A DNA stretch of 64,000 nt from Anaerolineae bacterium (GTDB lineage Bacteria; Chloroflexota; Anaerolineae; Anaerolineales; E44-bin32): the NCBI GenBank assembly GCA_011174825.1, contig DUEZ01000076.1, positions 25,457-89,456 on the forward strand. The letters are read 5' to 3'. How positions within the stretch are numbered: position 1 is the stretch's first letter; each line of letters opens with the position of its first letter. Below, in pieces: positions 48,901-64,000 of this stretch. The position numbers were made by a program, and so were the translations under genes. The notes beneath the pieces are model-generated. The model saw only the letters and a list, made by a program, of their open reading frames with translations. It did no database searches and was not told the DNA's origin.

Positions 48901-49111
48901 CCCCCGCTAGTACACCAAGAATCGATCCAAGGATAATACCCCAATAAGTAAATTGCCTTTTTGAAAACATCCTTATGGTGTGGTTCTTGTTCGGTGATTT
49001 GTGCATAAGACACGCACGTAGGAATCGATTTCGTCGAAGCTGTCGATAAGCTTCGATGCCGTCTTCTCGGTTTGCGTAAAAACCGATGAGGATTCCCATA
49101 TTGCTCATCAT
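39944..49111 (-). CDS. Giant cyclic beta-1,2-glucan synthase-like protein (GT84, GH94-type and middle glycoamylase-like domains)
   Basis: 3055 codons, one uninterrupted frame. Two helices near 57-105 follow a short cytoplasmic start. Two further helices lie near 570-630, before the GT84 glycosyltransferase at about 640-1030, with VITLDSDTQLP near 774 (DxD). More helices follow near 1035-1180. A middle domain at about 1220-1720 (YVSTVDSGNLLGSLWALDQG near 1240, LSWTGTMFEYLMPLL near 1560, YMAHHQAMGFLAINSLLND near 1700) resembles the cyclising domain of cyclic glucan synthases. Two sugar-binding sandwiches near 1790 and 2300 lead to a GH94 phosphorylase-like barrel with SSGAFGFRDQLQD near 2597 and IGIGDWNDGMNRV near 2732. 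Family knowledge: UDP-glucose is polymerised to beta-1,2-glucan, trimmed and cyclised. The product is probably periplasm- or surface-located glucan, but Chloroflexota usually lack a classical outer membrane, so the destination is unclear. An ATG at 49099 is an alternative start. Confidence 0.9.
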   Translation of the reverse strand: MMSNMGILIGFYANREDGIEAYRQLRRNRFLRACLMHKSPNKNHTIRMFSKRQFTYWGIILGSILGVLAGVLWIVAKGNPWILSDSFILAITGIFGGVPGGLSARVFFRVFRLGIDEKLVEKTMRFLVSGETVVIAQTTLESMDDAFHLLQDYTESQPSIFVIHPEREIEADQNPLQAEPLSTAELKDHAAQLAASHLFRPDTAHDEVLYEQLRICEDVIESIRSELVDASHMELPISTSAEWILDNAYIVQRHINDVRLNLSKKFYEQLPVLAAEGQKVEPRVYQLSVELIRHTDGRLDRHNITDFLEAYQAIATLTIGELWALPLMLRIALIDSLRQLVEQVSKSLRENEVADYWSNRLLTFSRRDPDQLFSIFNELIAEVPEPSMYFAAQLMGNLYDEETALLLVQSWLERKLNTELDEIIHQEQSRLASDHTSIGNAITSLRQLALLDWREIFEDQSRVDVVLRSDPAGIYSHMDFDTRDRYRRAVEELAVCAGVAEDHVAKLSVEMASDYPEDSLHNHIGYYLVGMGRNQLVDRLACSDIRRHRTLQWIYRYHSFLYISSISLLSVIAVGFVLVLMNLVGVRSQLLFAGVSLVSVFPASQFAVLLVNYLVTRVLPPRTLPKLSFEEGGIPEEYRTLVVVPIILIDRETILDEVSKLEIRYLANPDPNLVYALFSDFADADAQRMDGDEELLGLTVERIENLNQFYGEARFYLFHREREWSESEDRFIGWERKRGKLEDLNRLLIGESPLTDEGILHAGRADHLGDIRFVITLDSDTQLPVDGARRMIETLAHPLNQPKLSAEGNAIREGYAIIQPRVSTSLPSANATRFSRLFTDPIGADPYTKAVSDVYQDLSGEGSYHGKGIYDPKVFHRVLGGRFPEGRILSHDLIEGAHMRVGLASDIELFDDFPTHYQAYSIRQHRWIRGDWQIADWVTPWVPGPDGRVPNQLSALNRWKIFDNLRRSLVSPATVLMLITTWLISPVIGAIAGLLAGFLALFRPISKLVTWMTLPSGSVDISWRELGHDLIHVLIELSFLPHQAGLSIDAMFRVWYRRLISHRKLLEWTPAQMAQWDVSGHDRAFYLHMGMVSVLSIGLTGLLFWVEPFSLIFAGFFLLLWFISPFVAMWLAVKPDRTPRQVQISDRDSQMLRRIARETWRFYDDFVRSDTKWLPPDNYQISHRKELAMRTSPTNIGLWLLSALGAYDFGYVTGDQFVNLMTQTFNTIDNLERFEGHLLNWYELQNLRPLMPRYVSTVDSGNLLGSLWALDQGIQEVIDSPLFGEQASRGVIDTLRILREVLNRIDHRGRHNEIFVKLEEMFLTKPKNLEEFILHIWFAVNSVDDLVLLLKQDSQLDSEAVYWSEKVQQQLMAWVELIDRYLPWVEFILRESKDNIDLFNSRVKDAYRNFLKSPLSLKDIASGDIHFIEVLESEYKQLSDPPEQLEVWVNRIRKDYSRSKWFAGEMLSNVADLIHRIRDLGDSMNMRFLYDTNRRLFSIGYNLNEQHLDPSYYDLLASEARLASFVAIARGDVPSDHWLALSRPFARVGNRHLLLSWTGTMFEYLMPLLLQKGFENSLLDMAAREAVAQQIDYARQRGVPWGISESAFSDLDNNRIYQYKAFGVPGLGLKRGLGEELVVAPYATLLALMIDPAAAIRNLKRLDQIGLHDSYGYYDAIDFSRHRSRDGKRGVPARTYMAHHQAMGFLAINSLLNDQPLQRRFHSDARVRATEPLLYERIPIAPPLNEFPRREHAGSLASSAEVAPSVSKFDTPHTPTPVTQLISNGEYSLLISGAGGGYSRWRDIDITRWRADTTRDNWGTFCYFRDTETDRVWSNTFQPVGGKMDNYAVSFTIDRAEIRRSDDGIESESVITVSPEDNVEIRRITLINRTNRQRELEVTSYLELAMAPHNTDRQHPAFNKLFIQTEFVPNLGALIASRRPRNEDDPPIWVGHLITYDPTLEASIQFETDRRRFIGRGHTTVAPIALNQELTNTEGAVLDPILSIRREVVLKPRQRKRFTLILCVAETREKLLNLLDRYRESQSVDRALDLAWVQAQVELRQLRIQPDDARRFQQLASYMLYPSATFRPPGEVLRQNELDQSRLWPYGISGDKPIAVLSIAEGADLNFARQMLQAHSYWHQHGLNADLVILNEESSSYEQPLNEELKRLIQAQSSLTGVSQSDGVFLLNVDQISEEDLTLMLAVARVSLVASRGSLHQQLAGRSKTTEYPSPLSISFVPEEPSAPLPYMDLAYFNSLGGFTHDGRVYAIYLGPEDQTPAPWVNVIANPTFGTLISESGSGFTWYGNSQQNRLTRWSNDPVSDPPPDTIFIRDEETGKFWTPTPLPIRELDAYRTRHGAGFSVFEHNSHSIEQELVTFVPMDDQGGEPIRVQRLRLRNGSSKKRRLSVTFYLEWTLGDDREKTQQHVETKWDDTSKVILARNRYNADYRDRIAFSAINPAPHSITGDNNEFIGRNGTLADPDAMKRLKLSNRTGAGLDPCSAMQVKLELAPGESTDVICLLGQAGSVEEVRRLVGKYREDLGVEEALLRTTRWWDNLLGNIQVETPELSANFLINHWLLYQTLSCRVWGRSAFYQSSGAFGFRDQLQDVMALIYSAPKIARDHILLAASRQFREGDVQHWWHQPGGGGIRSRFSDDLLWLPYVVVHYVNSTGDEAILDEEISFLEGPALEEDENEVFMTPVITLESATLFEHCRRAIDRGLTSGVHGLPLIGIGDWNDGMNRVGDGGRGESVWLAWFLIDVLHGFAELADLKGESDLAEKYRKETRSLARAVEGEAWDGDWYRRAYFDDGTPLGSITNQEARIGSLPQSWAIISGAADQQRAKRAVDAAVDQLVREEDKLVLLFTPPFDKSKPNPGYIMGYPPGVRENGGQYTHGSLWLAMALAQQGDGDRAAWLLRIMNPIEHAKEPEEAERYMVEPYVVAADVYNLLGKIGQGGWTWYTGSAGWMYRVWIEEVLGFKLRGETLRIEPAIPSYWDQFTMRYRRGDSHYEIIFENPDHVSSDVAWVELDGQRLTQLEIPLDGEPGHHIVRVRMGRGI

Positions 49112-50090: not shown

Positions 50091-50556
50091 AAGATTTCAT
50101 TTCCTCTCGGCTGATGTTGCTTATATAAGGAATAAGCCTACCTCGATCCATCCTACGAGGAATGGACCGTTCAACAATCGGTTTTTTTAGTGTCAAATAT
50201 TGGATTATAACAGACCAAGCTGGCCCTTCTAATGGTATATCTTGGAATTATTGAGTCACAAGTCGCAAGCTTCAGGCTTCAAGCTGCAGGCTACAGGCTT
50301 CAAACTGAAGGTCGATGTTGTCGCCCTGCGTCTTGCGGTTTGTGGCTTGCAGCTTGCGGCTTGCAGCTTGAAGCTTGTAGCTTGAGATATATGATGATCT
50401 CCTGATGCAGAAACGATCATTATCCTAATGATTTTGGATGATGACTTGTTATTATTCTTATATAAACTCGAATACAATAATCCTCGATCCCCTAGTGCTG
50501 GAATCGATGATCGAAAGTTTCTTATTTGTTTACGGATTCATCGAGCATTACATCCT
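50091..50556. other. Intergenic region with heptad repeats
   Basis: About 465 bases between divergent genes. Positions 50260-50383 hold the facing heptad arrays. The plus-strand frame is open from 50428, but no ribosome site supports a start before 50557. Promoters for both flanking genes must lie here. Confidence 0.6.
50260..50383. repeat. Inverted pair of seven-base repeat arrays
   Basis: Left array (50260-50308): seven consecutive heptads close to AAGCTTC / AGGCTTC / AAGCTGC. Right array (50335-50383): seven heptads close to GCAGCTT / GCGGCTT / GTAGCTT. The right units are reverse complements of the left ones, so the arrays can fold into a long imperfect stem around 26 bases. Confidence 0.88.
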
Positions 50557-53472
50557 ATGGTCAAAAAAGAAACGTTAGAAGCAAGCCAAGAATTCATACA
50601 TGAAATGCGTCGTGCTATCGGTGAAGTTCATTTCGATAGACTGACACGATTACTCTACAGCACAGACGCTAGCATCTACCAGATCATACCCGTGGGAGTC
50701 GCAATCCCTCGAGATGAAGATGAGATCACTGCCGTAATGGAGATCGCCGCTCGGCATAATGTTCCAATCCTCCCTCGTGGTGGCGGAAGCAGCCTGGCTG
50801 GACAAGCAGTGGGACAAGCGTTAGTACTTGATTTTTCCCGCTATCATGATCGCATTCTCGAGGTCAATCCTGAGGCGAAAACCGTTCGAACGCAGCCAGG
50901 CATCACCCTCAGTGCACTCAATAAAACCCTCAGCCGTTTCGATCTTATGTATGGCCCAGACCCAGCAAGTGGCGAACGGGCGACAATGGGGGGCATCCTG
51001 GGAAACAACTCAACAGGGGCTCACTCCATCGTCTATGGAATGACCGTCGATCATGTCCTAACGACCGATGTTATCCTAGCTGATGGTACACGCGCACGAT
51101 TCGAAGCCCTCGATCCAAAGAATTGGAAGATCCGCAGCAAACGTCCCGGGCTCGAGGGATCGATTTATCGTGCCATCCCTGACATCCTGCAGCGCTACAA
51201 AGATCAGATAACGTCAAGATATCCAAAGGTGTTTCGCCACGTTGCGGGCTACAATCTCAATCAATTGACAGGAGTAGAAGCACCCAACCTCGCCAAACTG
51301 ATCGTTGGGTCAGAAGGGACACTTGGAATCATTACTGAGATGACCCTGAATCTCGTTCCTGTCCCCAAACTCAAGCGACTGGTGATGATCCACTACGCTG
51401 AACTACCCGCTGCAATGGATGCGGTGCCGATCATTCTCGAGACCAATCCCTCGGCTATCGAAGTGCTTGATAAGATGCTGCTCGACCTAACGAGGGACAA
51501 AAAAGAATACAACCGCTTGTTGACTTTTATCGAGGGCGATCCGGCTGTCGTGCTGCTTGTCGAGTATTCAGGAGGTACCGAATCCGAACTTGATGCGGGA
51601 ATCGCAAGGTTACGAGATAAGCTGAGCCAGATGCACCATCACGATACTGTAATCATCATCGTCGATCCAGCAGAACAAGCCAACGTTTGGTTTGTACGCA
51701 AGGTAGGATTGGGTATCCTGATGAGCGTCCGAGGTGATGCCAAACCTATCCCTTTCATCGAAGATGCGGCGGTACCGGTTGAACGCCTCACAGATTACGT
51801 CACAAATATTTACCAGTATTCAAATAGTGTGGGTGTCGAACAGGTGGCAATGTATGCCCATGCGAGTGCTGGCTGTATCCACATCCGCCCTCTTGTAAAT
51901 CTAAAAACAACCGATGGTCTGCAACAACTACGGCAGATTGCTGAGAGGTCTGTGGAACTCGTGACGCAGTACGGTGGCACAACGAGCGGCGAACACGGTG
52001 AAGGACTAGCTCGAGGAGAGTTCTCGGAGCGGTTATTTGGTACGGAGCTTGTCGAAGCATTCCGTGAGGTGAAGAAGGCATTTGATCCTGCCGGACTCAT
52101 GAATCCTGGCAAGGTGGTCGATGTACCCAGAATGGATGACCAATCGCTGCTTCGCTTTGGGACCAATTATGCCGTTCCCCACGAGTTCAGTGAAACGGTC
52201 TTCAGCTTCGCAAGCGATGGCGGCTTCGCCGGATCGGTCGAAATGTGTAACGGCGCTGGGGTGTGCCGACAATTGGAACTAGGGGTGATGTGCCCCTCCT
52301 TTCAAGCTATGCGGGATGAAGCTCACAGCACACGCGGTCGAGCAAATGCGTTACGTGTAGCGATGATGGGTCTCCTCGGTCCTGAGGGGATGACTTCCCG
52401 AGAGTTGTATGATGTACTGGATCTATGTTTATCGTGTCATGCATGTAAAGTTGAGTGTCCATCAGCCGTGGACATGGCAAAGATCAAAGCCGAGTTTCTT
52501 CACAATTACTATCGGCATCATGGCACCCCTCTTCGAGCACAAATCTTTGGAAATATCGCCAAGATGTATTCAATCTCCCAGCCCCTTGCATCTTTTGTCA
52601 ACCTGCTGCTGAATGGACCAGCGAAATGGCTCATACCGTTCTTGGGTGTTCATCCTAAGCGATCCATACCAAGATTATCCTCACAGAGCTTCAGCAATTG
52701 GTTTGGACAGAATAATGGCTATGCGAATAGCCTAAAAATCGGGGAAAAGACGGTCATCTTTTTCCACGATACCTTCACCGAACACAACCACCCTCACATC
52801 GGACGAGCCGCGATTAAAGCCCTGAAAGCCGTAGGATTTGAGCCCCTCCTGTTACCCAACAAAGCCTGCTGTGGTCGGCCCGCGGTGTCGAAGGGTCTTC
52901 TCGATGAAGCCGCACGCTTAGCGCGTCACAACATAGGATTGCTCGCACCCTACGCAAGGGAGGGCGTTCCAATCGTCGGAATCGAACCAAGCTGCATGTC
53001 AATGCTGCGTAACGAGTATCTTGATCTTGTGCCCGGGGACGATGCGAACGCTGTGGCGGAGGTCACGACGACAATCGAAACACTGATCGTACAAGCGGGA
53101 GAAGCAGGGAATCATAAGCTACGTTTTATAGATAGCCCCCGCCAGGTGCTGTTCCACGGTCACTGCCAGCAGAAGGCGGTCTTCGGTACTGAAAATACGC
53201 ACAAGCTGTTGCAACTCATTCCAGATTGCACGATCGAAGAGATCGAATCGGGTTGTTGCGGTATGGCAGGGTCATTCGGTTACGAGAAAGAGCACTACGA
53301 GTTATCGATCAAGCTGGCCGAAATGTCCCTCGCCCCAGCCGTACGTGGTGCTTCAGAAGAAACGATTATTTGCGCCAGCGGAACCTCGTGTAGGGATCAG
53401 ATCGAACATACAACCGGCCGCCGGGCGATGCATCCTATCGAGGTGTTTGCCGATGCATTGATCGTAGATTAA
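50557..53472 (+). CDS. FAD-linked oxidase fused to Fe-S/CCG protein (GlcD-GlcF type, D-lactate dehydrogenase-like)
   Basis: 971 residues from the ATG at 50557; the frame is open to 50428. The N-terminal FAD_binding_4 domain has PILPRGGGSSLAGQAVG near 67 and GILGNNSTGAHSIVYG near 145, with the C-terminal oxidase half to about 530. The Fe-S part follows: MCNGAGVC near 563, a ferredoxin-type CLSCHACKVECPSAVDMAK near 624, and two CCG-domain motifs, KACCGRP near 770 and SGCCGMAGSFGYEKEH near 898, which bind a non-cubane cluster. Such fusions oxidise 2-hydroxyacids and pass electrons to quinone or an ETF-like acceptor at the membrane. It may oxidise D-lactate, glycolate or a related acid made by the pathway that follows. 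Next gene 57 bases on. Confidence 0.9.
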   Translation: MVKKETLEASQEFIHEMRRAIGEVHFDRLTRLLYSTDASIYQIIPVGVAIPRDEDEITAVMEIAARHNVPILPRGGGSSLAGQAVGQALVLDFSRYHDRILEVNPEAKTVRTQPGITLSALNKTLSRFDLMYGPDPASGERATMGGILGNNSTGAHSIVYGMTVDHVLTTDVILADGTRARFEALDPKNWKIRSKRPGLEGSIYRAIPDILQRYKDQITSRYPKVFRHVAGYNLNQLTGVEAPNLAKLIVGSEGTLGIITEMTLNLVPVPKLKRLVMIHYAELPAAMDAVPIILETNPSAIEVLDKMLLDLTRDKKEYNRLLTFIEGDPAVVLLVEYSGGTESELDAGIARLRDKLSQMHHHDTVIIIVDPAEQANVWFVRKVGLGILMSVRGDAKPIPFIEDAAVPVERLTDYVTNIYQYSNSVGVEQVAMYAHASAGCIHIRPLVNLKTTDGLQQLRQIAERSVELVTQYGGTTSGEHGEGLARGEFSERLFGTELVEAFREVKKAFDPAGLMNPGKVVDVPRMDDQSLLRFGTNYAVPHEFSETVFSFASDGGFAGSVEMCNGAGVCRQLELGVMCPSFQAMRDEAHSTRGRANALRVAMMGLLGPEGMTSRELYDVLDLCLSCHACKVECPSAVDMAKIKAEFLHNYYRHHGTPLRAQIFGNIAKMYSISQPLASFVNLLLNGPAKWLIPFLGVHPKRSIPRLSSQSFSNWFGQNNGYANSLKIGEKTVIFFHDTFTEHNHPHIGRAAIKALKAVGFEPLLLPNKACCGRPAVSKGLLDEAARLARHNIGLLAPYAREGVPIVGIEPSCMSMLRNEYLDLVPGDDANAVAEVTTTIETLIVQAGEAGNHKLRFIDSPRQVLFHGHCQQKAVFGTENTHKLLQLIPDCTIEEIESGCCGMAGSFGYEKEHYELSIKLAEMSLAPAVRGASEETIICASGTSCRDQIEHTTGRRAMHPIEVFADALIVD

Positions 53473-53528
53473 GCTTTCTCGCCTTGCACATCATCTTTTG
53501 GTTATCATAATAGGGACCATCGGGATTA

Positions 53529-54728
53529 ATGTCCGCCTCAAACAAGAAATTAACCATGCGTCAGCGTGTCCTAGCCGTTCTCCAGGGGAGGAAACCCGAT
53601 CGCATTCCCTTCATTGACCGGATCGATTTTTGGTACAAAGGTCGAACGCAGCAAGGAAAATTGCCTGCAGAGTTTCACGGGAAGACCTTGCCCGCAGTCC
53701 ATCAAGCGATCGGTATGGGGCACCAAGATTGGGATTATCCCTATGCCATCAAATACAGAAATGTTGAGATCATCCTTACCTTTGAGGGGGAGAGGATTTT
53801 CCAAGAGATCGATCCCGAGATCACCAATTTCCCTACCCTTTGGGGATGGATCCCAATTGATAAAGCTGGCGTCACAACGACTGAACTGATCACACCTGTG
53901 GGCAAACTATTCTTTCAACACCGATTGCTAGAGGAGAGCATCTCTACAGGCACCACACGCCCTCAAATGATCTCCCATCCGATAAAAGATCTTGATGATT
54001 TCAAAACATACGAATACATCATCGAGCATACAGAATTCGTTCCCCGCTACGATGCTTTTGCTCACCGAGAAGCAGAAGTTGGTGATCATGGGTACCTCGT
54101 CCCGATCATTGAACGTATCCCGTTTCAACACTTACTCATCGACACAATTGGTGAGCTCGAAACCTTCTACATGCTCCATGACAACCCGAAGGAATTTAAA
54201 CGACTACTCAGCGTCATCGACGAGCAAGTTACGGATAAACTCAAGAGATTGGCTGACTTTTCTGCGCCTTATGTTGAATTCACTGACAATCTTGATGGTT
54301 TCATGACCAATCCCCTACTCTTCCGAGAGTATGTACTCCCAGCATTTCAATGCTATTGTGAAATCCTGCATGGTCAAGGTAAAAAAGTGGGAGATCATAC
54401 GGATGGGGATCTGAAGGCGATTGTAAATCTGATACCAGAGACGGATCTGGATGTATGTGAATCTTTCACGCCAGCTCCGACGACCAGTTGTACCTTCGAA
54501 GAGGCCTGGACGTTATGGAAAGAGGGTCCTCTCATATGGGGCGGGATCGCATCCTATTATCTTGAAGAAAGGGTCAGCGAGGTCGAATTCCGTGAGCACA
54601 TCGAACATCTATTGCAACTCATCGGCGACCGTCCTATCATCCTAGGTGTAGGTGACGCTGTCATGAGCAACAACGACCTCGATCGAGTAAGATACATTGC
54701 GGAGAGAATTGAGAGCCATCCGATATAA
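53529..54728 (+). CDS. Uroporphyrinogen-decarboxylase-fold methyltransferase
   Basis: 399 residues. It has the UroD TIM barrel (KPDRIPFIDRIDFWYKGR near 25, EFTDNLDGFMTNPLLFREYV near 252, LDVCESFTPAP near 308). The MtaA/MtbA-type zinc motif HxC is HTD here (DHTDGD near 290), and the third zinc Cys near the C-terminus is replaced by Asp (GVGDAVMSN), so it is probably not a zinc-thiolate CoM-type enzyme but a substrate-to-corrinoid methyltransferase. The corrinoid protein gene follows after 55 bases, which supports this. True uroporphyrinogen decarboxylase (HemE) is excluded by the altered N-terminus. Donor substrate unknown. Confidence 0.85.
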   Translation: MSASNKKLTMRQRVLAVLQGRKPDRIPFIDRIDFWYKGRTQQGKLPAEFHGKTLPAVHQAIGMGHQDWDYPYAIKYRNVEIILTFEGERIFQEIDPEITNFPTLWGWIPIDKAGVTTTELITPVGKLFFQHRLLEESISTGTTRPQMISHPIKDLDDFKTYEYIIEHTEFVPRYDAFAHREAEVGDHGYLVPIIERIPFQHLLIDTIGELETFYMLHDNPKEFKRLLSVIDEQVTDKLKRLADFSAPYVEFTDNLDGFMTNPLLFREYVLPAFQCYCEILHGQGKKVGDHTDGDLKAIVNLIPETDLDVCESFTPAPTTSCTFEEAWTLWKEGPLIWGGIASYYLEERVSEVEFREHIEHLLQLIGDRPIILGVGDAVMSNNDLDRVRYIAERIESHPI

Positions 54729-54782
54729 GGGTCATGCATAGATCATGACCGATGCAGATTTTTAACCGCTAGGAGCCAATGT

Positions 54783-55418
54783 ATGAACGAAATATTAAAA
54801 TCCATCTACGCCGCAGTATTAACAGGCGACATGACTACGACCCAGGAACAAGTCGAAGAAGCGATAAAAATCGGCTTGACTCCAGCCGATATCTTGCAGG
54901 AGGGACTGATCTCGGCTATGACAGAAGTAGGTAGGCGGTTCGAAGCCGGAGACTATTACGTTCCCGAGATGCTTATCGCTGCCAGAGCGATGAAAGGGGG
55001 ATTAACGATCCTCAAGCCGCTCCTCGCTGCATCAGATGTCCAACCTCTCGGAAAGATTGTCCTCGGTACGGTTAAGGGTGATTTACATGATATCGGCAAG
55101 AACCTGGTCAGCATGATGTTGGAGGGCGCCGGGTTCGAGATCGTGGATTTAGGGGTTGATATCCCGCCTGACAAGTTCGTCGAGGCGATACGATCTGGCG
55201 GGATCGATGTCCTCGGTATGTCGGCCCTCCTTACAACCACAATGCCCCTGATGAAAGCCACGATCGACGCATTGGTTGATGCTCAGTTACGCGACCAGGT
55301 TAAAGTTATCATAGGGGGTGCACCGGTGACCCAATCCTATGCTGATGATATCGGTGCCGACGGTTACGCACCGGATGCCAGTCGAGCCGCATCATTAACA
55401 AAATCGCTCGTAGGCTGA
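54783..55418 (+). CDS. Cognate corrinoid protein of a methyltransferase system
   Basis: 211 residues. The N-terminal helical cap (about 1-90) contains ISAMTEVGRRFEAGDYYVPE and the Rossmann B12 domain follows. The corrinoid motif is GDLHDIGKNLV with Asp 100, His 102 (lower axial ligand) and Gly 105; downstream are GMSALLTTTM near 147 and VIIGGAPVTQSYADDIGADG near 180. It carries the methyl group on Co between a substrate methyltransferase and a folate- or thiol-methyltransferase. The gene is directly after the UroD-fold methyltransferase. No reductive activator (RamA/RACo) was seen in the window. Confidence 0.93.
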   Translation: MNEILKSIYAAVLTGDMTTTQEQVEEAIKIGLTPADILQEGLISAMTEVGRRFEAGDYYVPEMLIAARAMKGGLTILKPLLAASDVQPLGKIVLGTVKGDLHDIGKNLVSMMLEGAGFEIVDLGVDIPPDKFVEAIRSGGIDVLGMSALLTTTMPLMKATIDALVDAQLRDQVKVIIGGAPVTQSYADDIGADGYAPDASRAASLTKSLVG

Positions 55419-55452
55419 TGAGAGTGCGTTTAATACGTTTAAAGGATGAAGG

Positions 55453-56370
55453 ATGATGCCACAAGTTCAACATACTGAACCAGCTATAGCAAAAGTGAAG
55501 GACATTGAAATCGTCTTCGATACATTTGGTGATCCGAGCGGTTCTCCTATTCTGCTCATCATGGGAATTGGCTGCCAAATGATCGATTGGAGAGATGATT
55601 TCTGCGAGAGACTGGCCTCCCGCGGCTATTGGGTCATCAGGTACGATAACCGTGATGTCGGCCTCTCAACCAAATTGGACGATTCTGGCGTACCAAATAT
55701 GATGCAAATGCTCATCGCATCGAGCGGGGGTGAAACATTGGAATCACCCTATACGTTGAAGCACATGGCGGACGATGCTGTCGGTCTACTTGATGCCCTT
55801 AAGATCGAGAAAGCCCATGTGGTTGGCGTATCGATGGGAGGCATGATCGCTCAGTCGATGGCCATTCACCATCCTGCCCGACTCGCCTCCTTAATCTCGA
55901 TCATGTCCTCAACCGGTGAGCCGGACCTCCCTCCTCCAACACCCGAGGCGCTCGCGGTCCTCACCACTCCCGCACCTGCCGACCGTGAAGGCTACATTGA
56001 AAGCTCGATCGAGAATTGGCGGGTTCTAAGCGGTCCGAAGTTTCCACCCGATGAGAAACTAACCCGTGAGCATGCGGGCTTGAAGTTCGATCGAGGGATT
56101 CACCCAGCTGGTATTGCGAGGCAAATGGCCGCCATATTGGCCTCCGGTGGGAGGAGGGAAGCACTGAAATCTGTTACCACCCCAACCCTCGTAATTCATG
56201 GGGATGCCGATCCACTCGTGCCCGTCGAAGGTGGAGTGGACACCGCGGATGCGATCTCAGAGGCTAAGCTGATCATCGTGGAAGGTATGGGGCATTATTT
56301 ACCCATTGAGCTATGGCCTCAACTGATCGACGCAATCGTGTACCATACATCCACAATAGAGATCTTATAA
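55453..56370 (+). CDS. Alpha/beta hydrolase
   Basis: 305 residues. The nucleophile elbow is HVVGVSMGGMIAQSMA with Ser 127. An oxyanion region IMGIGCQMIDWR is near 36, the acid is probably in VIHGDADPLVP near 256, and the His in GMGHYLPIE near 282. ORYDNRDVGLS-like text near 63 is typical of haloalkane-type and esterase relatives. It may cleave an ester or C-C bond of a substrate handled by the adjacent genes. AAGGATGAAGG precedes the first of two ATGs. Spacing to the corrinoid gene is 34 bases, consistent with one operon. Substrate not predictable. Confidence 0.88.
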   Translation: MMPQVQHTEPAIAKVKDIEIVFDTFGDPSGSPILLIMGIGCQMIDWRDDFCERLASRGYWVIRYDNRDVGLSTKLDDSGVPNMMQMLIASSGGETLESPYTLKHMADDAVGLLDALKIEKAHVVGVSMGGMIAQSMAIHHPARLASLISIMSSTGEPDLPPPTPEALAVLTTPAPADREGYIESSIENWRVLSGPKFPPDEKLTREHAGLKFDRGIHPAGIARQMAAILASGGRREALKSVTTPTLVIHGDADPLVPVEGGVDTADAISEAKLIIVEGMGHYLPIELWPQLIDAIVYHTSTIEIL

Positions 56371-56542
56371 TGTAAACTACTCTTAGTCATAATTCATGAA
56401 AGGATTTTCGATATGAGCTGAAGGATAATTAATCGAGGAACCATCCAAGACATGCTCCCCGTCATGTACCATTGAGCATAGGTCCATTCGATAACTTTTA
56501 ATGACCTCATCCAAGGGATTCGCAAACGACCATAACCAAATC

Positions 56543-57655
56543 ATGAGCATACTCTTTTCCCCATTCAACATTGGTCCACTTGATTTACCAAACCGATTGG
56601 TCAGGTCCGCCACAGCCGAACGAATGGCTGATGGAGACGGTCGACCTTTACCCCCACTGAAGAATCTACATACTGAATTAGCGAAAGGTGGGGTTGGCCT
56701 GATCATCACAGGTCATATGTACATACATCCTTCAGGTAAGGCTCACGTAGAGATGACAGGTGTCTATAGCGATGACCTGCTCCCCGACCTCTCACAATTA
56801 GCCAACGCAGTTCATGATGAAAACGGTCGGATCATCGTCCAGATCAACCACGGTGGCATGAATTGCAGTCGGGAGACGGTTGATGAAAATTTCGCTCCTT
56901 CAGCAGTTGATCAGCCATATGTGAGCAGACCTGCTCGAGAAATCACACGTAAAGAGATCGATAATATCATCCAAGCATACGCTAATGCTGCTCGAAGGGT
57001 GCAAGATGCGGGCTTCGATGGGGTTCAGATTCATGCTGCACATGGCTACTTGATCAGTCAATTCTTGTCTCCACTCATCAATCATCGCAACGATGAATGG
57101 GGAGGAGGGATAACGGAGAGAATGCGTTTCCTCAAAGAAATCAGCAAGGCTGTGAGAGATCAAGTCGGATCTGACTATCCTGTCTTGATCAAGCTAGGCA
57201 TGATAGATGGCATACAAGGCGGACTAACACCCGAGGAGAGTCTAGAGGTTGTCGCCGCGTTGGAAGACATGGGCATAGATGCTTTGGAGATTAGCGGTGG
57301 TTTTAGTGGGGGTCGAAGCCTAAACATCAGAAAGGGAATTCGATCACAAACTGATGAAGCCTACTTCCTTCACTTGGCACAAAGAGCCCGCAAAGTCACC
57401 CCACTGCCTGTCATCTTGGTTGGGGGTTTACGCTCACGATCCGTGATGGAGCAAGTACTGATCGATGGACACGCCGACCTCATCTCACTCAGCCGACCGC
57501 TGATATCTGAACCTGATCTACCAAATCGCTTGCGTTTAGGCTTGCAGGAAAAATCAAGATGTCTGTCATCAAACAATTGTTGGCCTGAAACCGTAGGGGA
57601 AGGAATTGCATGTAAATGTCCTCATGAGAAGCTGACCGATAAGGGTAAAGCGTAA
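56543..57655 (+). CDS. Old-yellow-enzyme-type NADH:flavin oxidoreductase
   Basis: 370 residues from the ATG at 56543; the frame extends to 56501. FMN TIM barrel: RLVRSATAERMADGDGRP near 18, ITGHMYIHPSGKA near 58, VQINHGGMNCSRE near 98 and HAAHGYLISQFLSPLINHRN near 170, where the tandem-His region binds substrate. The C-terminus ends with SSNNCWPETVGEGIACKC, several cysteines but no full Fe-S/FAD extension of the 2,4-dienoyl-CoA reductase type. It reduces conjugated double bonds. A gap of 172 bases separates it from the hydrolase gene, and the acyl-CoA dehydrogenase gene follows. Confidence 0.9.
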   Translation: MSILFSPFNIGPLDLPNRLVRSATAERMADGDGRPLPPLKNLHTELAKGGVGLIITGHMYIHPSGKAHVEMTGVYSDDLLPDLSQLANAVHDENGRIIVQINHGGMNCSRETVDENFAPSAVDQPYVSRPAREITRKEIDNIIQAYANAARRVQDAGFDGVQIHAAHGYLISQFLSPLINHRNDEWGGGITERMRFLKEISKAVRDQVGSDYPVLIKLGMIDGIQGGLTPEESLEVVAALEDMGIDALEISGGFSGGRSLNIRKGIRSQTDEAYFLHLAQRARKVTPLPVILVGGLRSRSVMEQVLIDGHADLISLSRPLISEPDLPNRLRLGLQEKSRCLSSNNCWPETVGEGIACKCPHEKLTDKGKA

Positions 57656-57728
57656 GGATACGATTAATCAACGATAATGATCTGGGCAAAATAAAACATG
57701 AGATCGATCGAGCCACAAGGAGGATAAT

Positions 57729-58868
57729 GTGATCGACTTTGCTCTCACCGAGGAACAAAAAGCCTGCCAAAAGCTGGTTCGCGACTTTGCTCTTAAAGAG
57801 ATCGTACCTGTAGCTCATGAGTTGGATGAAGAACAACGTCACAGCCCTGAAATCGTGGAAAAGTACCACGAGATCGGATTACTACATTACGCGGTACCAG
57901 AGGAATATGGTGGAGCCGGATTGGGCTCATTAGAAGGCTGCATCTTCGGTGAGGAATTGGGCGCGGCCTGTGCGGGGGTTGCTGCGAGCCTTGGAGGCAG
58001 CATTTTAGGCCTCACCCCGTTTCTTATCGCTGGTAGCCCAGAGCTTAAAGAAGAGCTGCTCACGAAGCATACCTCAGGGCCAAATCTGGGCGCATTTTGT
58101 TTAACCGAACCAGATGCTGGTTCAGATGTCGCAGCGCTACGGACGACTGCCGTTCTCGAAGGAGACGAATACATCATAAATGGTTCTAAACGCTTCATCA
58201 CTAATGGCGGTGTGGCAAGCCTCTATTCGGTCTTTGCTACCGAAAACGCTGAATTAAGACACAAAGGGATCTCGGCTTTCATGGTCCCTGCCGATACACC
58301 CGGTGTCTCCAGTGGTAAGAAAGAGGACAAGATGGGCCAGCGGGCTACCGATACCCGAGAAGTGATCTTTAGCGATGTTCACATTCCCGCCCGATATCGA
58401 CTGGGCGAAGGGCTTGATGGCTTCAAGATTGCGATGAAGACCTTGGATGATTCCCGTGCAGGAGTAGGCGCAGCAGCGGTTGGTATCGCACGCGCAGCTC
58501 TGGAGGCCGCGAGGGATTATGCTAAAGAGCGGGTGCAATTTGGGAAACCCATCGCTGCTCAACAAGGCATCCAGTTCATGTTGGCTGATATGGCGATGAA
58601 GGTCAACGCCGCTCGATTACTCTGCTGGCATGCTGCCTGGTTGCATGATAACGGACAACGTAATACATTGGAATCAGCTATCGCCAAATGCTTTGCTGGA
58701 GACACGGCCATGGCGGTGACCACGGACGCCGTCCAGGTTCTCGGGGGCTACGGGTATATGAAGGAATACCCGGTTGAGAAATACATGCGCGACGCTAAAC
58801 TACACCAGATCTATGAGGGCACAAACCAGATCCAACGTTTGGTGATCGCTCGGCAGATTCTCAGTTAG
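57729..58868 (+). CDS. Acyl-CoA dehydrogenase
   Basis: 379 residues from a GTG at 57729 with AAGGAGG five bases upstream. Signatures: CLTEPDAGSDVAALRTTAV near 115 (first family motif), KRFITNGGVASLYSVFA near 150, and QVLGGYGYMKEYPVEKYMRD near 335 followed by KLHQIYEGTNQIQRLVIAR, whose Glu at about 364 is the catalytic base position of short/medium-chain enzymes. FAD-dependent oxidation of an acyl-CoA to enoyl-CoA is expected, with electrons to ETF; no ETF gene is in view. It follows the flavin oxidoreductase by 73 bases and shares direction with the ligase and AbfD genes. Confidence 0.95.
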   Translation: MIDFALTEEQKACQKLVRDFALKEIVPVAHELDEEQRHSPEIVEKYHEIGLLHYAVPEEYGGAGLGSLEGCIFGEELGAACAGVAASLGGSILGLTPFLIAGSPELKEELLTKHTSGPNLGAFCLTEPDAGSDVAALRTTAVLEGDEYIINGSKRFITNGGVASLYSVFATENAELRHKGISAFMVPADTPGVSSGKKEDKMGQRATDTREVIFSDVHIPARYRLGEGLDGFKIAMKTLDDSRAGVGAAAVGIARAALEAARDYAKERVQFGKPIAAQQGIQFMLADMAMKVNAARLLCWHAAWLHDNGQRNTLESAIAKCFAGDTAMAVTTDAVQVLGGYGYMKEYPVEKYMRDAKLHQIYEGTNQIQRLVIARQILS

Positions 58869-59177
58869 GTTGCGATTTTTCAAACTTGAGTAGAAAAAGA
58901 TTACCGTGATATTGCTCAATATCGACTGCATGATAGATTGTCAAACGAGAGATGAAGAGATTCATTAGGTTCAACGAGGAGGTGACCTCGGCGATCGATT
59001 AAACCATTGATTATGATGTATCTCCGAGATAACCGCATAAGCTGCACAAGAGAACGCGAATGAGATTCTAGACGCGCATCGATCAAGCACCCCTAAGGAT
59101 CAATCAAGGATCTCACCATCGATAAGCGCATCATGAAGTTCTCTCCACAGCAGCTCAAGCAATGGAGGAGGCCTGCG

Positions 59178-60884
59178 ATGAATCAAGAAAAACCCTGGCT
59201 CAAATTCTATGAGCCCCATGTACCGGAGCACATTGATTATCCCGAAATGACACTACCCGAAGCTTTAGAAGAGACTGCGCGCAAACATCCGGATCATGTG
59301 GCCCACATATTCAAAGACAGCAAGATAACCTATCGAGAACACATAGAGGCGGTAAACAGGTTCGCTGCTGCTTTGCAAGGGTTGGGCGTAAAAAAGGGTG
59401 ACCGGGTCGCGATCCACCTACCCAACTGCCCACAGTTCCCAATCTCTTATGCAGCTACCCTGAAGATCGGAGGGATCGTCGTTCCTTGCAATCCGGTCTA
59501 CACGGCCCGTGAGCTAAACCATCAACTTAACGACTCTGGTGCAGAGGTCATCGTAACTCTCAGCGCGATGTATCCCATCATCAAACATATCCGTAGCGAA
59601 ACCAAGTTGCGTCATGTCGTCGTCGCCAAGATCAAAACGTTCTTCCCAACCCTCACGAAATTGCTCTTCACACTGCTGTTGGAGAAGAAATCTGGCCATA
59701 AGGCAGACATCTCAGGCGATGAGAACACTTATTGGTTTTCGGATCTCTTGGCTGAGGCACCAGAGAAACCCCAACCGGTTGATATCTCGTGGGATGACAC
59801 CGCGGTGCTGATGTACACGGGCGGCACCACTGGCGTCTCCAAGGGCGCCCAACTCACACACAAGAATATCTTTGTCAACGCTTACCAGGTGATCACTTGG
59901 GTTAATGGAATGGATGCAAAAAACACAGTGCTGACGGCTATTCCGCTGTATCACAGCTACGGCATGACCTGCTGTATGAACCCAGGCGCCATCACCCCCG
60001 GCACCACAATCCTGGTACCCGATCCACGCGACGTAGAAGACGTTTTGAAGAGTATCCACAAATACCGACCGGATTTATACCCTGGCGTGCCGGCCTTGTA
60101 CATCTCGATTAATAACCATCCGGATGTAAAAAAGTATGACCTTACCTCACTTAAGGCATGCAACAGTGGTGCTGCTCCGCTTCCCGTGGAGGTACAACAA
60201 CAATTCCAAAAGATCACAGGCGCTCGTTTGGTGGAAGGTTATGGTCTCAGCGAGGCTTCACCTGTAACGCACGCCAACCCCATATATGGCGAGTGCCGCC
60301 TCGGTACCATCGGTCTGCCATACCCCGACACTGAGGTCAAGATCGTCGACGCTGATACCGGTGAGAGAGTGCTCGGCATTGGCGAGATAGGCGAACTCTG
60401 TATCCGGGGTCCGCAAGTGATGAAGGGGTACTGGAACATGCCGACCGAAACGGCTAATACCCTTCGGACCGGCCCAGAAGGTGGCGAACCCTGGCTTCAC
60501 ACCGGCGACATCGCTGTTATGGATAAAGATGGGTACAGTCAAATCGTAGATCGAAAAAAGGACATGATCCTGGGCGCAGGTGGTTATAATATCTACCCTC
60601 GGGAGATCGAGGATGTTCTCTTTGAAAATCCGAAGATCCTTGAAGCCGGAGTCGCAGGAGTTCCGGTGCCGGGTAAGGGTGAACGTGTAAAGGCTTTCGT
60701 CGTTCTAAAGCCCGGTGAGACCGCAACCGAGGAAGAGATCTTGGCTTTCCTACGGGAAAAAGTGGCTCCCTACAAAGTACCTAAGTATGTTGAATTCCGC
60801 GATGAACTGCCAAAGACATTAACCGGAAAGGTGCTACGTCGCGCGCTGGTTGAAGAGGAGACGAAGAGACAAACCACCGAGTGA
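59178..60884 (+). CDS. Acyl-CoA synthetase (AMP-forming, long-chain fatty-acid-CoA ligase type)
   Basis: 568 residues from the ATG at 59178, where GGAGGAGG stands six bases upstream; the frame is open from 59133. ANL-superfamily motifs are complete: ATP-binding LMYTGGTTGVSKGAQLTHKN near 213, VEGYGLSEASPVTHANP near 350, WLHTGDIAVMDKDGY near 440, IVDRKKDMILGAGGYNIYPR near 455 and the catalytic Lys in LPKTLTGKVLRR near 555. It activates a carboxylic acid with CoA using ATP. Chain length is not predictable. Expected role: feeding the acyl-CoA dehydrogenase and AbfD steps nearby. Confidence 0.95.
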   Translation: MNQEKPWLKFYEPHVPEHIDYPEMTLPEALEETARKHPDHVAHIFKDSKITYREHIEAVNRFAAALQGLGVKKGDRVAIHLPNCPQFPISYAATLKIGGIVVPCNPVYTARELNHQLNDSGAEVIVTLSAMYPIIKHIRSETKLRHVVVAKIKTFFPTLTKLLFTLLLEKKSGHKADISGDENTYWFSDLLAEAPEKPQPVDISWDDTAVLMYTGGTTGVSKGAQLTHKNIFVNAYQVITWVNGMDAKNTVLTAIPLYHSYGMTCCMNPGAITPGTTILVPDPRDVEDVLKSIHKYRPDLYPGVPALYISINNHPDVKKYDLTSLKACNSGAAPLPVEVQQQFQKITGARLVEGYGLSEASPVTHANPIYGECRLGTIGLPYPDTEVKIVDADTGERVLGIGEIGELCIRGPQVMKGYWNMPTETANTLRTGPEGGEPWLHTGDIAVMDKDGYSQIVDRKKDMILGAGGYNIYPREIEDVLFENPKILEAGVAGVPVPGKGERVKAFVVLKPGETATEEEILAFLREKVAPYKVPKYVEFRDELPKTLTGKVLRRALVEEETKRQTTE

Positions 60885-61096
60885 AACCATTGAGAAATCG
60901 TGGGTATCGACATTGAGAGAATCTGACCTCCGAGGTCTTTGATCATAGCTTCATGAGCTCTGTGGTTATCTGTCATCTGCTCAAACACGAAAGCATGTAG
61001 CAAAGCATCGGAGGTCTTTGCCATTACATCATCGATGAAGAGAGGCACAAGGTTGAGTTGTTTTTATCCCATTCGACTTGATCAGGAGTAGATGTC

Positions 61097-62551
61097 ATGA
61101 CTTTGATGACGGCAGATGCGTATTTGGATAGCCTGAGGCGGATGCACAAACGTGTTTTTATGTTTGGTGAGGAGATCGAAGACCCTACAGATCACCCAAT
61201 GATACGGCCGTCGGTGAATGCTGTGGCCATGACGTATGAATTAAGCCACCACCCAGATCATGAGGCACTTCTAACTACTGAATCGAGTCTTACAGGAAAG
61301 AGAATCAACCGCTTCACCCACCTCCACCAGAGCACGGACGATCTGGTCAAGAAGGTCAAGATGTTGCGTCTTTTAGGGCAATGCACTGGATGCTGCTTCC
61401 AACGGTGCGTCGGGATGGACAGCTTTAATGCAATCGATATCGTCACGGACAAGATGGATCAAGCACTAGGCACTGAATACAACCTAAGATTTAGAGAATA
61501 CCTGCAACATGTGCAAGATGAAGACTTGGTGGTTGATGGCTGTATGACAGATCCCAAAGGAAATCGAGGGCTTCCACCAGGGGAGCAATCAGATCCAGAT
61601 TTATTCCTTCGTGTCATTGATGAGAATAAAGACGGGATCACAATCCGCGGCGCGAAAGTCCATCAGACAGGTGCCATCAATTCCCATGAAATACTGGCGA
61701 TGCCCACACGGTCCCTTAAAGAAGCCGATGAAGACTACGCAGTCGCCTGTGCGATTCCCGCAGATGATGAAGGAGTCCTCTACGTTTACGGTCGGCAGGC
61801 AAGCGACACAAGAAAACTTGAAGGGGGCGATATCGACGTCGGGAATGTCCGCTTTGGAGGACACGAAGCGGTCGTAATCTTCAATAACGTGTTCGTTCCA
61901 TGGAAACGGGTATTCATGTGCGGTGAATTTCAATTCGCTGGTGAGATGGTTGAGACCTTCGCTGCTTATCACAGATCGAGTTATGGGGGGTGCAAGGTTG
62001 GCGTGGGTGATGTTCTCATTGGCGCGACAAAACTCATCGCCACGTATCAAGGCGTTGAGGACGCTTCCCATATCAAGGACAAGCTTGTTGAGATGATCCA
62101 CCTTAATGAAACACTCTATGCGTGTGGGTTGGCATGTTCCACTGAGGGCGTGAAGACGTCCTCCGGAACTTACCTCGTCGACATGGTCCTAGCGAATATC
62201 TGCAAGTTGAACGTTACCCGTTTTCCCTATCAGATCGCCAGCATCGCTCAGGATATTGCTGGAGGGTTGCTTGTAACAATGCCCTCTGAGAAGGACTTTT
62301 CTCATCCCGAAGTAGGACCCTTGCTACAAAAGTATTTGGCTGGAGCAGAACCATACCCCACAGAATGGCGTCAACGTATCCTGCGTTTGATTGAAAACCT
62401 AACGCTTGGGCTAGGTGCGGTGGGATATTTAACTGAGTCGATGCATGGCGCTGGATCGCCTATGGCTCAGCGGATCATGCTCTCCCGTTTGACCGACATG
62501 GAGCATAAGGAAGGATTAGCGGCAACCATTGCTGGTATTAAAGAGCAGTAA
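61097..62551 (+). CDS. abfD: 4-hydroxybutyryl-CoA dehydratase / vinylacetyl-CoA delta-isomerase
   Basis: 484 residues. AbfD binds FAD and an unusual [4Fe-4S] cluster and dehydrates 4-hydroxybutyryl-CoA by a radical route to crotonyl-CoA. The cluster ligands of the Clostridium enzyme are Cys 99, Cys 103, His 292 and Cys 299. Here GQCTGCCFQRC supplies Cys 100 and Cys 104 in the right spacing, and AAYHRSSYGGCKVG supplies His 292 and Cys 299 exactly. This separates it from 4-hydroxyphenylacetate hydroxylases, which lack these ligands. It links to 4-aminobutyrate or succinate fermentation, or to 4-hydroxybutyrate-type carbon pathways. AGGAG precedes the ATG. FdrA follows after 120 bases. Confidence 0.95.
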   Translation: MTLMTADAYLDSLRRMHKRVFMFGEEIEDPTDHPMIRPSVNAVAMTYELSHHPDHEALLTTESSLTGKRINRFTHLHQSTDDLVKKVKMLRLLGQCTGCCFQRCVGMDSFNAIDIVTDKMDQALGTEYNLRFREYLQHVQDEDLVVDGCMTDPKGNRGLPPGEQSDPDLFLRVIDENKDGITIRGAKVHQTGAINSHEILAMPTRSLKEADEDYAVACAIPADDEGVLYVYGRQASDTRKLEGGDIDVGNVRFGGHEAVVIFNNVFVPWKRVFMCGEFQFAGEMVETFAAYHRSSYGGCKVGVGDVLIGATKLIATYQGVEDASHIKDKLVEMIHLNETLYACGLACSTEGVKTSSGTYLVDMVLANICKLNVTRFPYQIASIAQDIAGGLLVTMPSEKDFSHPEVGPLLQKYLAGAEPYPTEWRQRILRLIENLTLGLGAVGYLTESMHGAGSPMAQRIMLSRLTDMEHKEGLAATIAGIKEQ

Positions 62552-62671
62552 AGTGTGCTACATTTGGCGCAAGCGCTCCTTTACACTTACTGTTCATTAA
62601 GAGAAAAGAATTTCCCTTACCACACGGTGCTCCGTTCTTGAAGGTTACTCACAGGACCTGGGGTGATATCC

Positions 62672-64000
62672 ATGGCCATTCTTTGCCGAAGGAAGGAAAG
62701 TCAGTACTACGACTCTGTAACATTAATGACCGTGGCCAGGAAAATAAAGTCTATCTCAGGGATAGAAGATGCCGCGCTCGTCATGGGCACCAAAGCCAAT
62801 AAGGATCTGCTAAAAGAAGCAAAATTGTTCTCGCCTGAATTGGAAGAGGCGACCTCGAATGACCTCATTATTGTTGTCATGGGCGATGAGCCAAATGCGA
62901 GTAAGGCGATTGTCCAGGCCGAGGATTTCCTGACCCGAAGGACAATCCAAGCCAAACCGTTCGGAGAACACCAACCCAGGACTTTGCGTAGTGCGGTACG
63001 AATGGGACAAGAATCAAATCTCGCATTGATCTCGCTCCCCGGGCAATATGCAGTGGCTGAAGCGTGGGATGCGCTCCATTACGGATTACATGTTCTCCTC
63101 TTCAGCAACAATATACCGCTTGCTGACGAAATCGCCTTGAAACGCTACGCTGTCGATCACAACTTACTCATGATGGGTCCGGGGGCCGGCACGGCCATCA
63201 TCAATGGCGTGGCGCTCGGTTTCGGGAACGCTCTACCTCGCGGACCGGTAGGTGTCGTCTCCGCTGCAGGTACCGGTTTACAGGAAGTGAGCACACTGCT
63301 CGCCAAACAAGGGGTAGGGATCTCGCATGGCATCGGTGTTGGTGGACGTGATCTCTCCGATGAGGTCGATGCGATGATGATGATCCAGGCAATAGAAGCA
63401 TTGCAAGTGGATCAGGGGACTGAAGTTATCGTAGCCATCTCGAAATACCCTTCATCAAATGTGACGAAGAAGGTATTTTCGAAACTAGAGGCAGGCACAA
63501 AACCATCCGTTGTGATCTTCATGGGGGAGAGCATTGCCCCAATTCCCAATCAACATCTCGGTAGAGGGATGATTATCTTTGCGAATACTTTGCAGGAAGC
63601 TGCTATGAAGGCCGCAACGTTAGCCACGGGAGGCGATCTCACTGTTGTAGATGAGCAATTAGATCAACAATTGATTGATCTACAGAGTCAGGCATATAAG
63701 CTGGCCTCCTTACTCAAACCTGGGCAGAGATATCTGCGGGGCTTATTCAGTGGTGGCACTCTCTGTGAGGAGGCAATGCGGATATGGTTTGATAGGATAC
63801 AACCTGTGTGGTCCAATGTCCCACTAAAGGATGAATGGAAATTACATGATTCGAAAAGGAGTCATGAACATTGTGCATGGGATCTAGGAGCGGAAGAGTT
63901 CACCTTGGGTCGCCCCCACCCTATGATTGATCATGACCTACGAATTTCGCGCCTTTTAGAAGAGGCGAACGATCATTCTGTTGCAGTGATTCAGATGGAT
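62672..64000 (+). CDS. fdrA: FdrA-family protein (acyl-CoA synthetase-like), continues past window end
   Basis: The frame is open from the ATG at 62672 to the window edge, 443 codons; E. coli FdrA has about 555, so roughly a fifth is missing. The N-terminus SQYYDSVTLMTVARKI and DAALVMGTKANKDLLKEA matches FdrA. A succinyl-CoA-synthetase-like CoA-binding region follows: LLMMGPGAGTAIINGVALGF near 170 and VVSAAGTGLQEVSTLLAKQG near 195, ISHGIGVGGRDLSDEV near 215. In E. coli FdrA is part of the oxamate carbamoyltransferase of allantoin breakdown; in other bacteria its role is open. Placement right after abfD suggests an anaerobic acid- or amide-processing function. AllG/AllH partners, if any, lie beyond the window. 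Confidence 0.93.
   Translation, partial: MAILCRRKESQYYDSVTLMTVARKIKSISGIEDAALVMGTKANKDLLKEAKLFSPELEEATSNDLIIVVMGDEPNASKAIVQAEDFLTRRTIQAKPFGEHQPRTLRSAVRMGQESNLALISLPGQYAVAEAWDALHYGLHVLLFSNNIPLADEIALKRYAVDHNLLMMGPGAGTAIINGVALGFGNALPRGPVGVVSAAGTGLQEVSTLLAKQGVGISHGIGVGGRDLSDEVDAMMMIQAIEALQVDQGTEVIVAISKYPSSNVTKKVFSKLEAGTKPSVVIFMGESIAPIPNQHLGRGMIIFANTLQEAAMKAATLATGGDLTVVDEQLDQQLIDLQSQAYKLASLLKPGQRYLRGLFSGGTLCEEAMRIWFDRIQPVWSNVPLKDEWKLHDSKRSHEHCAWDLGAEEFTLGRPHPMIDHDLRISRLLEEANDHSVAVIQMD

Follow-up and report, generated by a model that had tools for sequence, protein, structure and literature searches.

Methyl transfer systems in which a protein of the URO-D fold adjoins a corrinoid protein are represented by MtvBC, OdmB, VdmB, MtoB and CdmBC. 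Type 1 mlp gene clusters, in the passages available from PMC10418091, combine UroD-superfamily and corrinoid proteins with no tetrahydrofolate methylase alongside; besides a Ram/RACE gene, they carry two or more MtaA-like proteins. Corrinoid methyltransferases (mta, mtm, mtb, mtt) were reported in metagenome-assembled genomes (MAGs) of Chloroflexota in the part of PMC11650866 consulted, and AllF, AllG and AllH together constitute the oxamic transcarbamylase of E. coli according to an excerpt of PMC11326118. The present analysis concerns a row of nine genes at positions 50557-64000 of a 64,000-nucleotide stretch (hereafter the window; C77:25457-89456, contig DUEZ01000076.1) from an Anaerolineae bacterium, together with the sequence following it, which could be read past window position 64000 because the contig extends to 125,548 bp. 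With a probability of about 0.6, the locus is a catabolic neighbourhood of at least two functional modules, A and B, and not one demonstrated pathway.

Module A resembles MtvBC, OdmB, VdmB, MtoB and CdmBC in that a URO-D fold protein adjoins a corrinoid protein and the genome also contains RACo, methyl-H4folate:corrinoid methyltransferase (MeTr) and the AcsB/CdhC marker. It differs from them in lacking an above-cut-off match to a characterised member, in the absence from the cluster of a second methyltransferase (MT II) and an activase, and in having dehydrogenase, old-yellow-enzyme family reductase (OYE), acyl-CoA dehydrogenase (ACAD), ligase and AbfD genes as companions. With the Type 1 mlp clusters it shares the combination of UroD-superfamily and corrinoid proteins lacking an adjacent tetrahydrofolate methylase. 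Whereas those clusters contain two or more MtaA-like proteins in the passages cited, the only UroD protein here is a divergent one, and a Ram gene is absent. Corrinoid methyl transfer alongside Wood-Ljungdahl genes is common to this bacterium and the Chloroflexota of PMC11650866, as far as it was deduced in both; the passages of that source contain 0 occurrences each of O-demethylases and 4-hydroxybutyryl-CoA and do not mention this gene set. No account of the set was found in a literature search conducted largely on the opening parts of abstracts.

Families were assigned to the nine proteins using Pfam and NCBIfam models. All nine open reading frames (ORFs) lie on the plus strand, and the gene list of the original prediction, nine same-strand genes with named families, was borne out by both model sets; the gaps of 70-310 bases given there measured 34-264 bp between the nine genes. 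None of the nine proteins passed a curated NCBIfam cut-off, so that exact functions are not given by those models.

The sequence beyond position 64000 completes fdrA on the same contig as a 530-aa ORF ending at L009:2712, and the same-strand run continues for about 10 kb. The in-window part of FdrA scored 351.8 bits against the FdrA model, below the cut-off of 433, and the complete ORF scored 224.7 bits against the FdrA chain 3dmy. AllG (332.8 bits) and AllH (74.2 bits) both exceeded their Pfam cut-offs, placing allF, allG and allH in one run, and a carbamate kinase above cut-off is encoded elsewhere in the window genome. In these features the locus is like the E. coli AllFGH system of PMC11326118, as excerpted; it differs in the accompanying XDH-family enzyme, cyclase, thiolase and zinc-ribbon/OB (Zn/OB) protein. 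The matches for the genes of the run included no family of the allantoin pathway, no genome-wide search having been made.

AllG was found in 57 of 301 genomes of the phylum at E 1e-40, and 20 neighbourhoods of the 64 listed matches were fetched. AllF was present in all 20, directly adjoining AllG in 19 (XDH genes lie between the two in L134), with a CoxL-like subunit in 11 and the cyclase in nine. UroD, corrinoid, AbfD, OYE, ACAD, hydrolase and dehydrogenase genes were found in none of these 20 neighbourhoods, and a ligase-like match (35%) in one. In two genomes from other families, G009 (same class) and G351 (same order), most of the module persists without corrinoid or AbfD genes: AllF, AllG, the cyclase, CoxLSM and a 230-aa protein are present at 41-76% identity. 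G351 additionally retains the thiolase and the Zn/OB protein, and related NCS2-like permease ORFs adjoin the module in both, so that in some genomes it also comes with one or another of these genes; the G351 permease, the only copy tested, scored 223.4 bits, below the NCBIfam cut-off of 291.8. The 230-aa protein (L009:2889-3581) has no Pfam match at E 0.001 and a poor fold prediction (pLDDT 57), and adjoins AllFG modules in W167, G351 and G009 at 41-94% identity.

Since the AllFGH-type module recurs without the eight genes that precede fdrA in the window (hereafter the front block), FdrA belongs with the downstream module. It is most likely a carbamoyltransferase-type subunit and not an acid-activating enzyme; the role in acid activation first proposed for it is very probably wrong, as the gene heads a module that recurs without the others. 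A function as CoA ligase was rejected, given that FdrA is followed by AllG and AllH and that the module recurs alone. The label 'acyl-CoA synthetase' carried by FdrA misleads toward CoA chemistry here, and its correction matters for annotation. AllFGH, the XDH-family enzyme and the cyclase form a recurrent module of the phylum and perhaps an undescribed route of N-heterocycle degradation; no description of such a module was found, again in a search based largely on abstract starts.

Conservation of the front block was examined by mapping neighbour genes around relatives with tblastn. A scan of named genomes with the UroD alignment yielded 26 loci; for AbfD, OYE, the dehydrogenase and the corrinoid protein the best-scoring matches only were used, the last three with 29 loci each and flanks of at most 1.5 kb, often ending at contig ends. 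Outside the window genome, the eight-gene order was found in no more than two genomes, both from close relatives: Anaerolineaceae bin52 (L147) and Anaerolineae W167 (L148) retain SDR, dehydrogenase, UroD, corrinoid, alpha/beta hydrolase (ABH), OYE, ACAD, ligase, AbfD and AllF at 75-92% identity. AllF of bin52 is truncated at a scaffold gap. A rearrangement in bin52 parting AllF from AllG was rejected, as the breaks are 100-N scaffold gaps; at these gaps end AllF, thiolase, HgdA and a glucan-synthase-like gene. W167 lacks CoxMSL and most of AllH, and its collinearity extends to the left over the glucan-synthase-like gene and to the right beyond HgdB, so that the common order may reflect close kinship and not selection for the cluster.

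In the other 24 UroD loci, where the best UroD segment is 25-51% identical, the remaining seven genes of the front block were not found, apart from two ACAD-like matches (L151) and one ligase-like match (L156) at 29-33%; an SDR-like match (24-29%) occurs in eight. The 29 OYE and 29 dehydrogenase loci contain no other front-block gene except one ACAD-like match of 40%, and also one SDR and one thiolase match, all three at 25-40%. Around AbfD relatives (58-69% identity) in 11 other genomes, no front-block neighbours were found in the fetched stretches, two of which are contigs of less than 10 kb. Among the 199 genomes of the class, with an E-value threshold that differs per search, the corrinoid protein was matched in 135, the dehydrogenase in 64, UroD in 34, OYE in 31 and AbfD in 20.

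These distributions bear on two alternatives. In the original prediction the row was a candidate for one pathway. Extended to the downstream genes, the UroD/corrinoid pair would demethylate a methylated acid, the product would be oxidised or reduced and activated by the ligase, ACAD would dehydrogenate it, AbfD would dehydrate or isomerise it to crotonyl-CoA, and the downstream thiolase would cleave. The single strand with short gaps throughout, purifying selection on all eight genes (dN/dS 0.04-0.19 by NG86 in the three genomes, rough values as dS is 0.5-1.2), the order retained in two further genomes, the downstream thiolase and the AcsB/CdhC marker of the Wood-Ljungdahl pathway speak for it. 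This reading is nevertheless improbable: synteny is lacking in the examined relatives outside the two close ones, with neighbours unshared around AbfD, OYE and the dehydrogenase save for the three matches of 25-40%; the W167 collinearity spans unrelated flanks as well; three of the spacers differ in length; and the AllG module of G351 comes with the thiolase as well. The same data would also suit chance neighbours, that is, three or four catabolic units that are unrelated but adjacent, with no link between the UroD-corrinoid pair and the CoA genes, since the families are common in the class (20-135 of 199 genomes) and front-block genes, a few weak matches apart, were not found together in the relatives examined outside the lineage. 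This explanation is somewhat unlikely, as the spacers of the first four genes (34-60 bp) stay short in all three genomes.

Spacers were compared in the same three genomes (window genome, bin52 and W167). Stable lengths were observed between dehydrogenase and UroD (47-56 bp), UroD and corrinoid (50-60 bp), corrinoid and ABH (34 bp), OYE and ACAD (73-75 bp) and AbfD and AllF (111-116 bp). Variable lengths separate ABH from OYE (130-253 bp), ACAD from the AMP-forming ligase (FACL; 263-340 bp) and FACL from AbfD (212-421 bp), bin52 being the odd one. In this sample of three genomes the pattern fits three or four transcription units, in agreement with an earlier caution that two or more operons may be present. 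Scans for consensus promoters and terminators gave counts no better than those of shuffled sequence (17 versus a mean of 16.8, and 13 versus 11.9).

What stands out most at this locus is the pairing of an uncharacterised UroD clade with a corrinoid protein, in a bacterium that carries Wood-Ljungdahl markers. The UroD protein matches Pfam URO-D with 37.1 bits (cut-off 23.9), and its structure model has a pLDDT of 93.6. The Foldseek matches to this model are URO-D decarboxylases, with the M. mazei methyltransferase 4ay8/4ay7 appearing at ranks 12 and 21. The corrinoid gene lies 54 bp downstream and also adjoins UroD in L147 and L148, and a distant UroD-fold gene is located within 8 of the 29 examined loci of the nearest corrinoid relatives. 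MTTB genes occur in nine of the 24 more distant UroD loci, all nine within the 21 loci with genome counts, for which 0.8 loci were expected with gene positions taken as random and genome sizes rounded; the remaining three (L170-L172), having no MTTB genome count, were left out of the expectation. Members of the clade come from Anaerolineae, from Desulfobacterales and from a small number of other MAGs. Elsewhere in the window genome, a RACo match and a CdhC/AcsB match are located on C82, a second RACo match with a stop codon on C19 and MeTr on C65 (331.1 bits, cut-off 259); RACo and CdhC/AcsB matches are present in both close relatives as well. A methyltransferase system formed by the UroD/corrinoid pair is plausible from these sequence features, and the corrinoid methyl-transfer pair seen in the original prediction is likely, given the URO-D fold, the adjoining corrinoid gene and a genome with RACo, MeTr and AcsB/CdhC. 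Should the clade prove to have methyltransferase activity, it would contribute a donor specificity that is so far uncharacterised and would help to explain the methyl supply of Wood-Ljungdahl Chloroflexota. Carnitine-, betaine- and dimethylsulfoniopropionate-like substrates were considered and not adopted; none of the ten proteins searched exceeded a curated cut-off.

The UroD-fold protein could instead be another enzyme of the URO-D superfamily, the corrinoid protein then serving a different methyltransferase such as one of eight MTTB. The clade is uncharacterised, and by eye the alignment has HxDG at the place of HxC in the MtaA zinc-ligand pattern, HxC...C. The window genome has eight MTTB matches, two of which flank a corrinoid gene on C19 beside the stop-containing RACo match. 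The missing zinc pattern is not decisive, however, as the characterised UroD-family methyltransferase CdmB does not depend on zinc according to the passages available from PMC13222342. With UroD relatives near MTTB genes and corrinoid relatives near UroD-fold genes, this alternative is considered unlikely.

Several points weigh against a two-module locus opening with a methyltransferase pair. Decarboxylases outrank the methyltransferase in the Foldseek search, no solved structure matches the clade in sequence at E 0.01 or E 1, and the score of 19.1 bits against the methyltransferase model NF004889 is far below its cut-off of 244. No corrinoid gene was found in 23 of the 24 more distant UroD loci, several of which span only 3-8 kb. 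Seven of the nine MTTB associations resemble one inherited cluster and the other two are both from Desulfobacterales, so the independent events may number only three (P ~0.04) or two (P ~0.18). Neither RACo nor MeTr was seen among the genes of the cluster itself. The AbfD-AllF spacer is as stable as those within operons, and AbfD may thus belong to module B. The source genome consists of 102 contigs and is 92% complete with 6% contamination.

AbfD matches the solved AbfD 1u8v over its full length with 677 bits, and 6vjr, also over the full length, with 625 bits. Residues C99, C103, H292, Y296, C299, K300 and E455, presumably the [4Fe-4S] ligand and catalytic positions, are identical in the 1u8v alignment, so the AbfD called in the first annotation is very probably genuine; conversion of 4-hydroxybutyryl-CoA to crotonyl-CoA would be the expected reaction. 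Compared with the 1u8v system, no gene of the cluster was recognised as a partner specific for 4-hydroxybutyrate. A paralogue (43%) is encoded on contig C82. In three of the 11 AbfD genomes, all of one genus, CoxM/CoxS-like genes lie beside AbfD. In genus g48 a fused CoxM-CoxS (FAD + 2Fe-2S) ORF adjoins AbfD (L048:15966-17387 and L050:18609-20000), and the fetched g48 stretches contain no CoxL match.

For the two-module reading the following mechanism is proposed, in which we infer every substrate and the methyl flow; the gene families and their order, the purifying selection and the complement of the genome were observed. Module A would open with a probable operon of hydroxyacid dehydrogenase, UroD-fold methyltransferase, corrinoid protein and hydrolase. 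The UroD protein would bind a methylated, probably O-methyl, substrate and transfer the methyl group to Co(I) of the corrinoid protein, which a RACo-type activase encoded elsewhere would keep active; a methyl-H4folate:corrinoid methyltransferase, also encoded elsewhere, would pass the methyl group to the Wood-Ljungdahl pathway. Any hydroxyacid set free may be a substrate of the dehydrogenase. Acid catabolism would fall to OYE-ACAD, the ligase and AbfD, probably as transcription units of their own, and AbfD would turn 4-hydroxybutyryl-CoA into crotonyl-CoA. In module B, which starts at FdrA (AllF), opening of an oxidised N-heterocycle would be carried out by AllF, AllG and AllH together with the cyclase and the XDH-family enzyme, with carbamoyl phosphate freed. 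A complete anaerobic route in this Anaerolineae-related lineage, in which a new zinc-independent UroD-fold clade demethylates a methylated (perhaps methoxylated) hydroxy acid, the methyl group is fed into the Wood-Ljungdahl pathway, and oxidation and CoA activation of the remaining acid lead via AbfD to crotonyl-CoA, is quite improbable. The features of the locus are listed in Table 1.

Table 1. Genes of the front block and of the downstream module (window positions unless marked L009)
Feature	Position	Strand	Remarks
FAD/Fe-S 2-hydroxyacid dehydrogenase (GlcD-GlpC fusion, YdiJ-like)	50557..53472	+	971 aa; FAD-oxidase and Fe-S/CCG domains
UroD-superfamily protein, candidate methyl-donor methyltransferase (MT I)	53529..54728	+	399 aa; Pfam URO-D
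Methyltransferase corrinoid protein (MtgC-like)	54783..55418	+	211 aa; B12-binding
Alpha/beta hydrolase (ABH)	55453..56370	+	305 aa; Pfam/NCBIfam
Old-yellow-enzyme family reductase (OYE), single-domain	56501..57655	+	384 aa; Oxidored_FMN
Acyl-CoA dehydrogenase (ACAD)	57729..58868	+	GTG start; nearest solved chain 1ukw, next medium-chain and short-chain types
AMP-forming acyl-CoA ligase (FACL)	59133..60884	+	583 aa; AMP-binding
4-hydroxybutyryl-CoA dehydratase/vinylacetyl-CoA isomerase family (AbfD)	61097..62551	+	484 aa; HpaB family
AllF/FdrA	62663..64000 (complete ORF L009:1120-2712)	+	530 aa; first gene of the AllFGH/cyclase/XDH module
Module B: AllF, 230-aa protein, thiolase, Zn-ribbon/OB protein (112 aa), AllG, cyclase-family hydrolase, XDH-family molybdenum enzyme (three subunits), AllH, in this order	L009:1120-12515 (from window 62663)		
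BadF/HgdC-type activase and two HgdA/B-like subunits	after AllH	opposite	

The start of the dehydrogenase gene is uncertain, another in-frame ATG being present at 50428, and the protein scored 605.9 bits against the NCBIfam equivalog for YdiJ (D-2-hydroxyglutarate dehydrogenase), below the cut-off of 1350. Just upstream of this gene, positions 50229-50395 appear by eye to be repeat-rich with inverted-repeat-like sequence. The remaining gap in W167 (L181:8150-8800) contains repeat-like sequence which, by eye, is like the cyclase-CoxM gap of the window genome. Among the distant UroD loci, L155, L160, L164, L166, L167, L168 and L169 have a recurrent arrangement of an ABC sugar-type transporter, a UroD-clade protein, a LacI-type regulator and MTTB, the Pfam check of such cluster genes covering L167 and L153 only; five of these seven clusters add relatives of M24-peptidase, SDR and DUF4432. 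Beside the front block, a 3055-aa ORF is located on the minus strand (39944-49111), which we take to resemble a cyclic beta-glucan synthase (NdvB-like).

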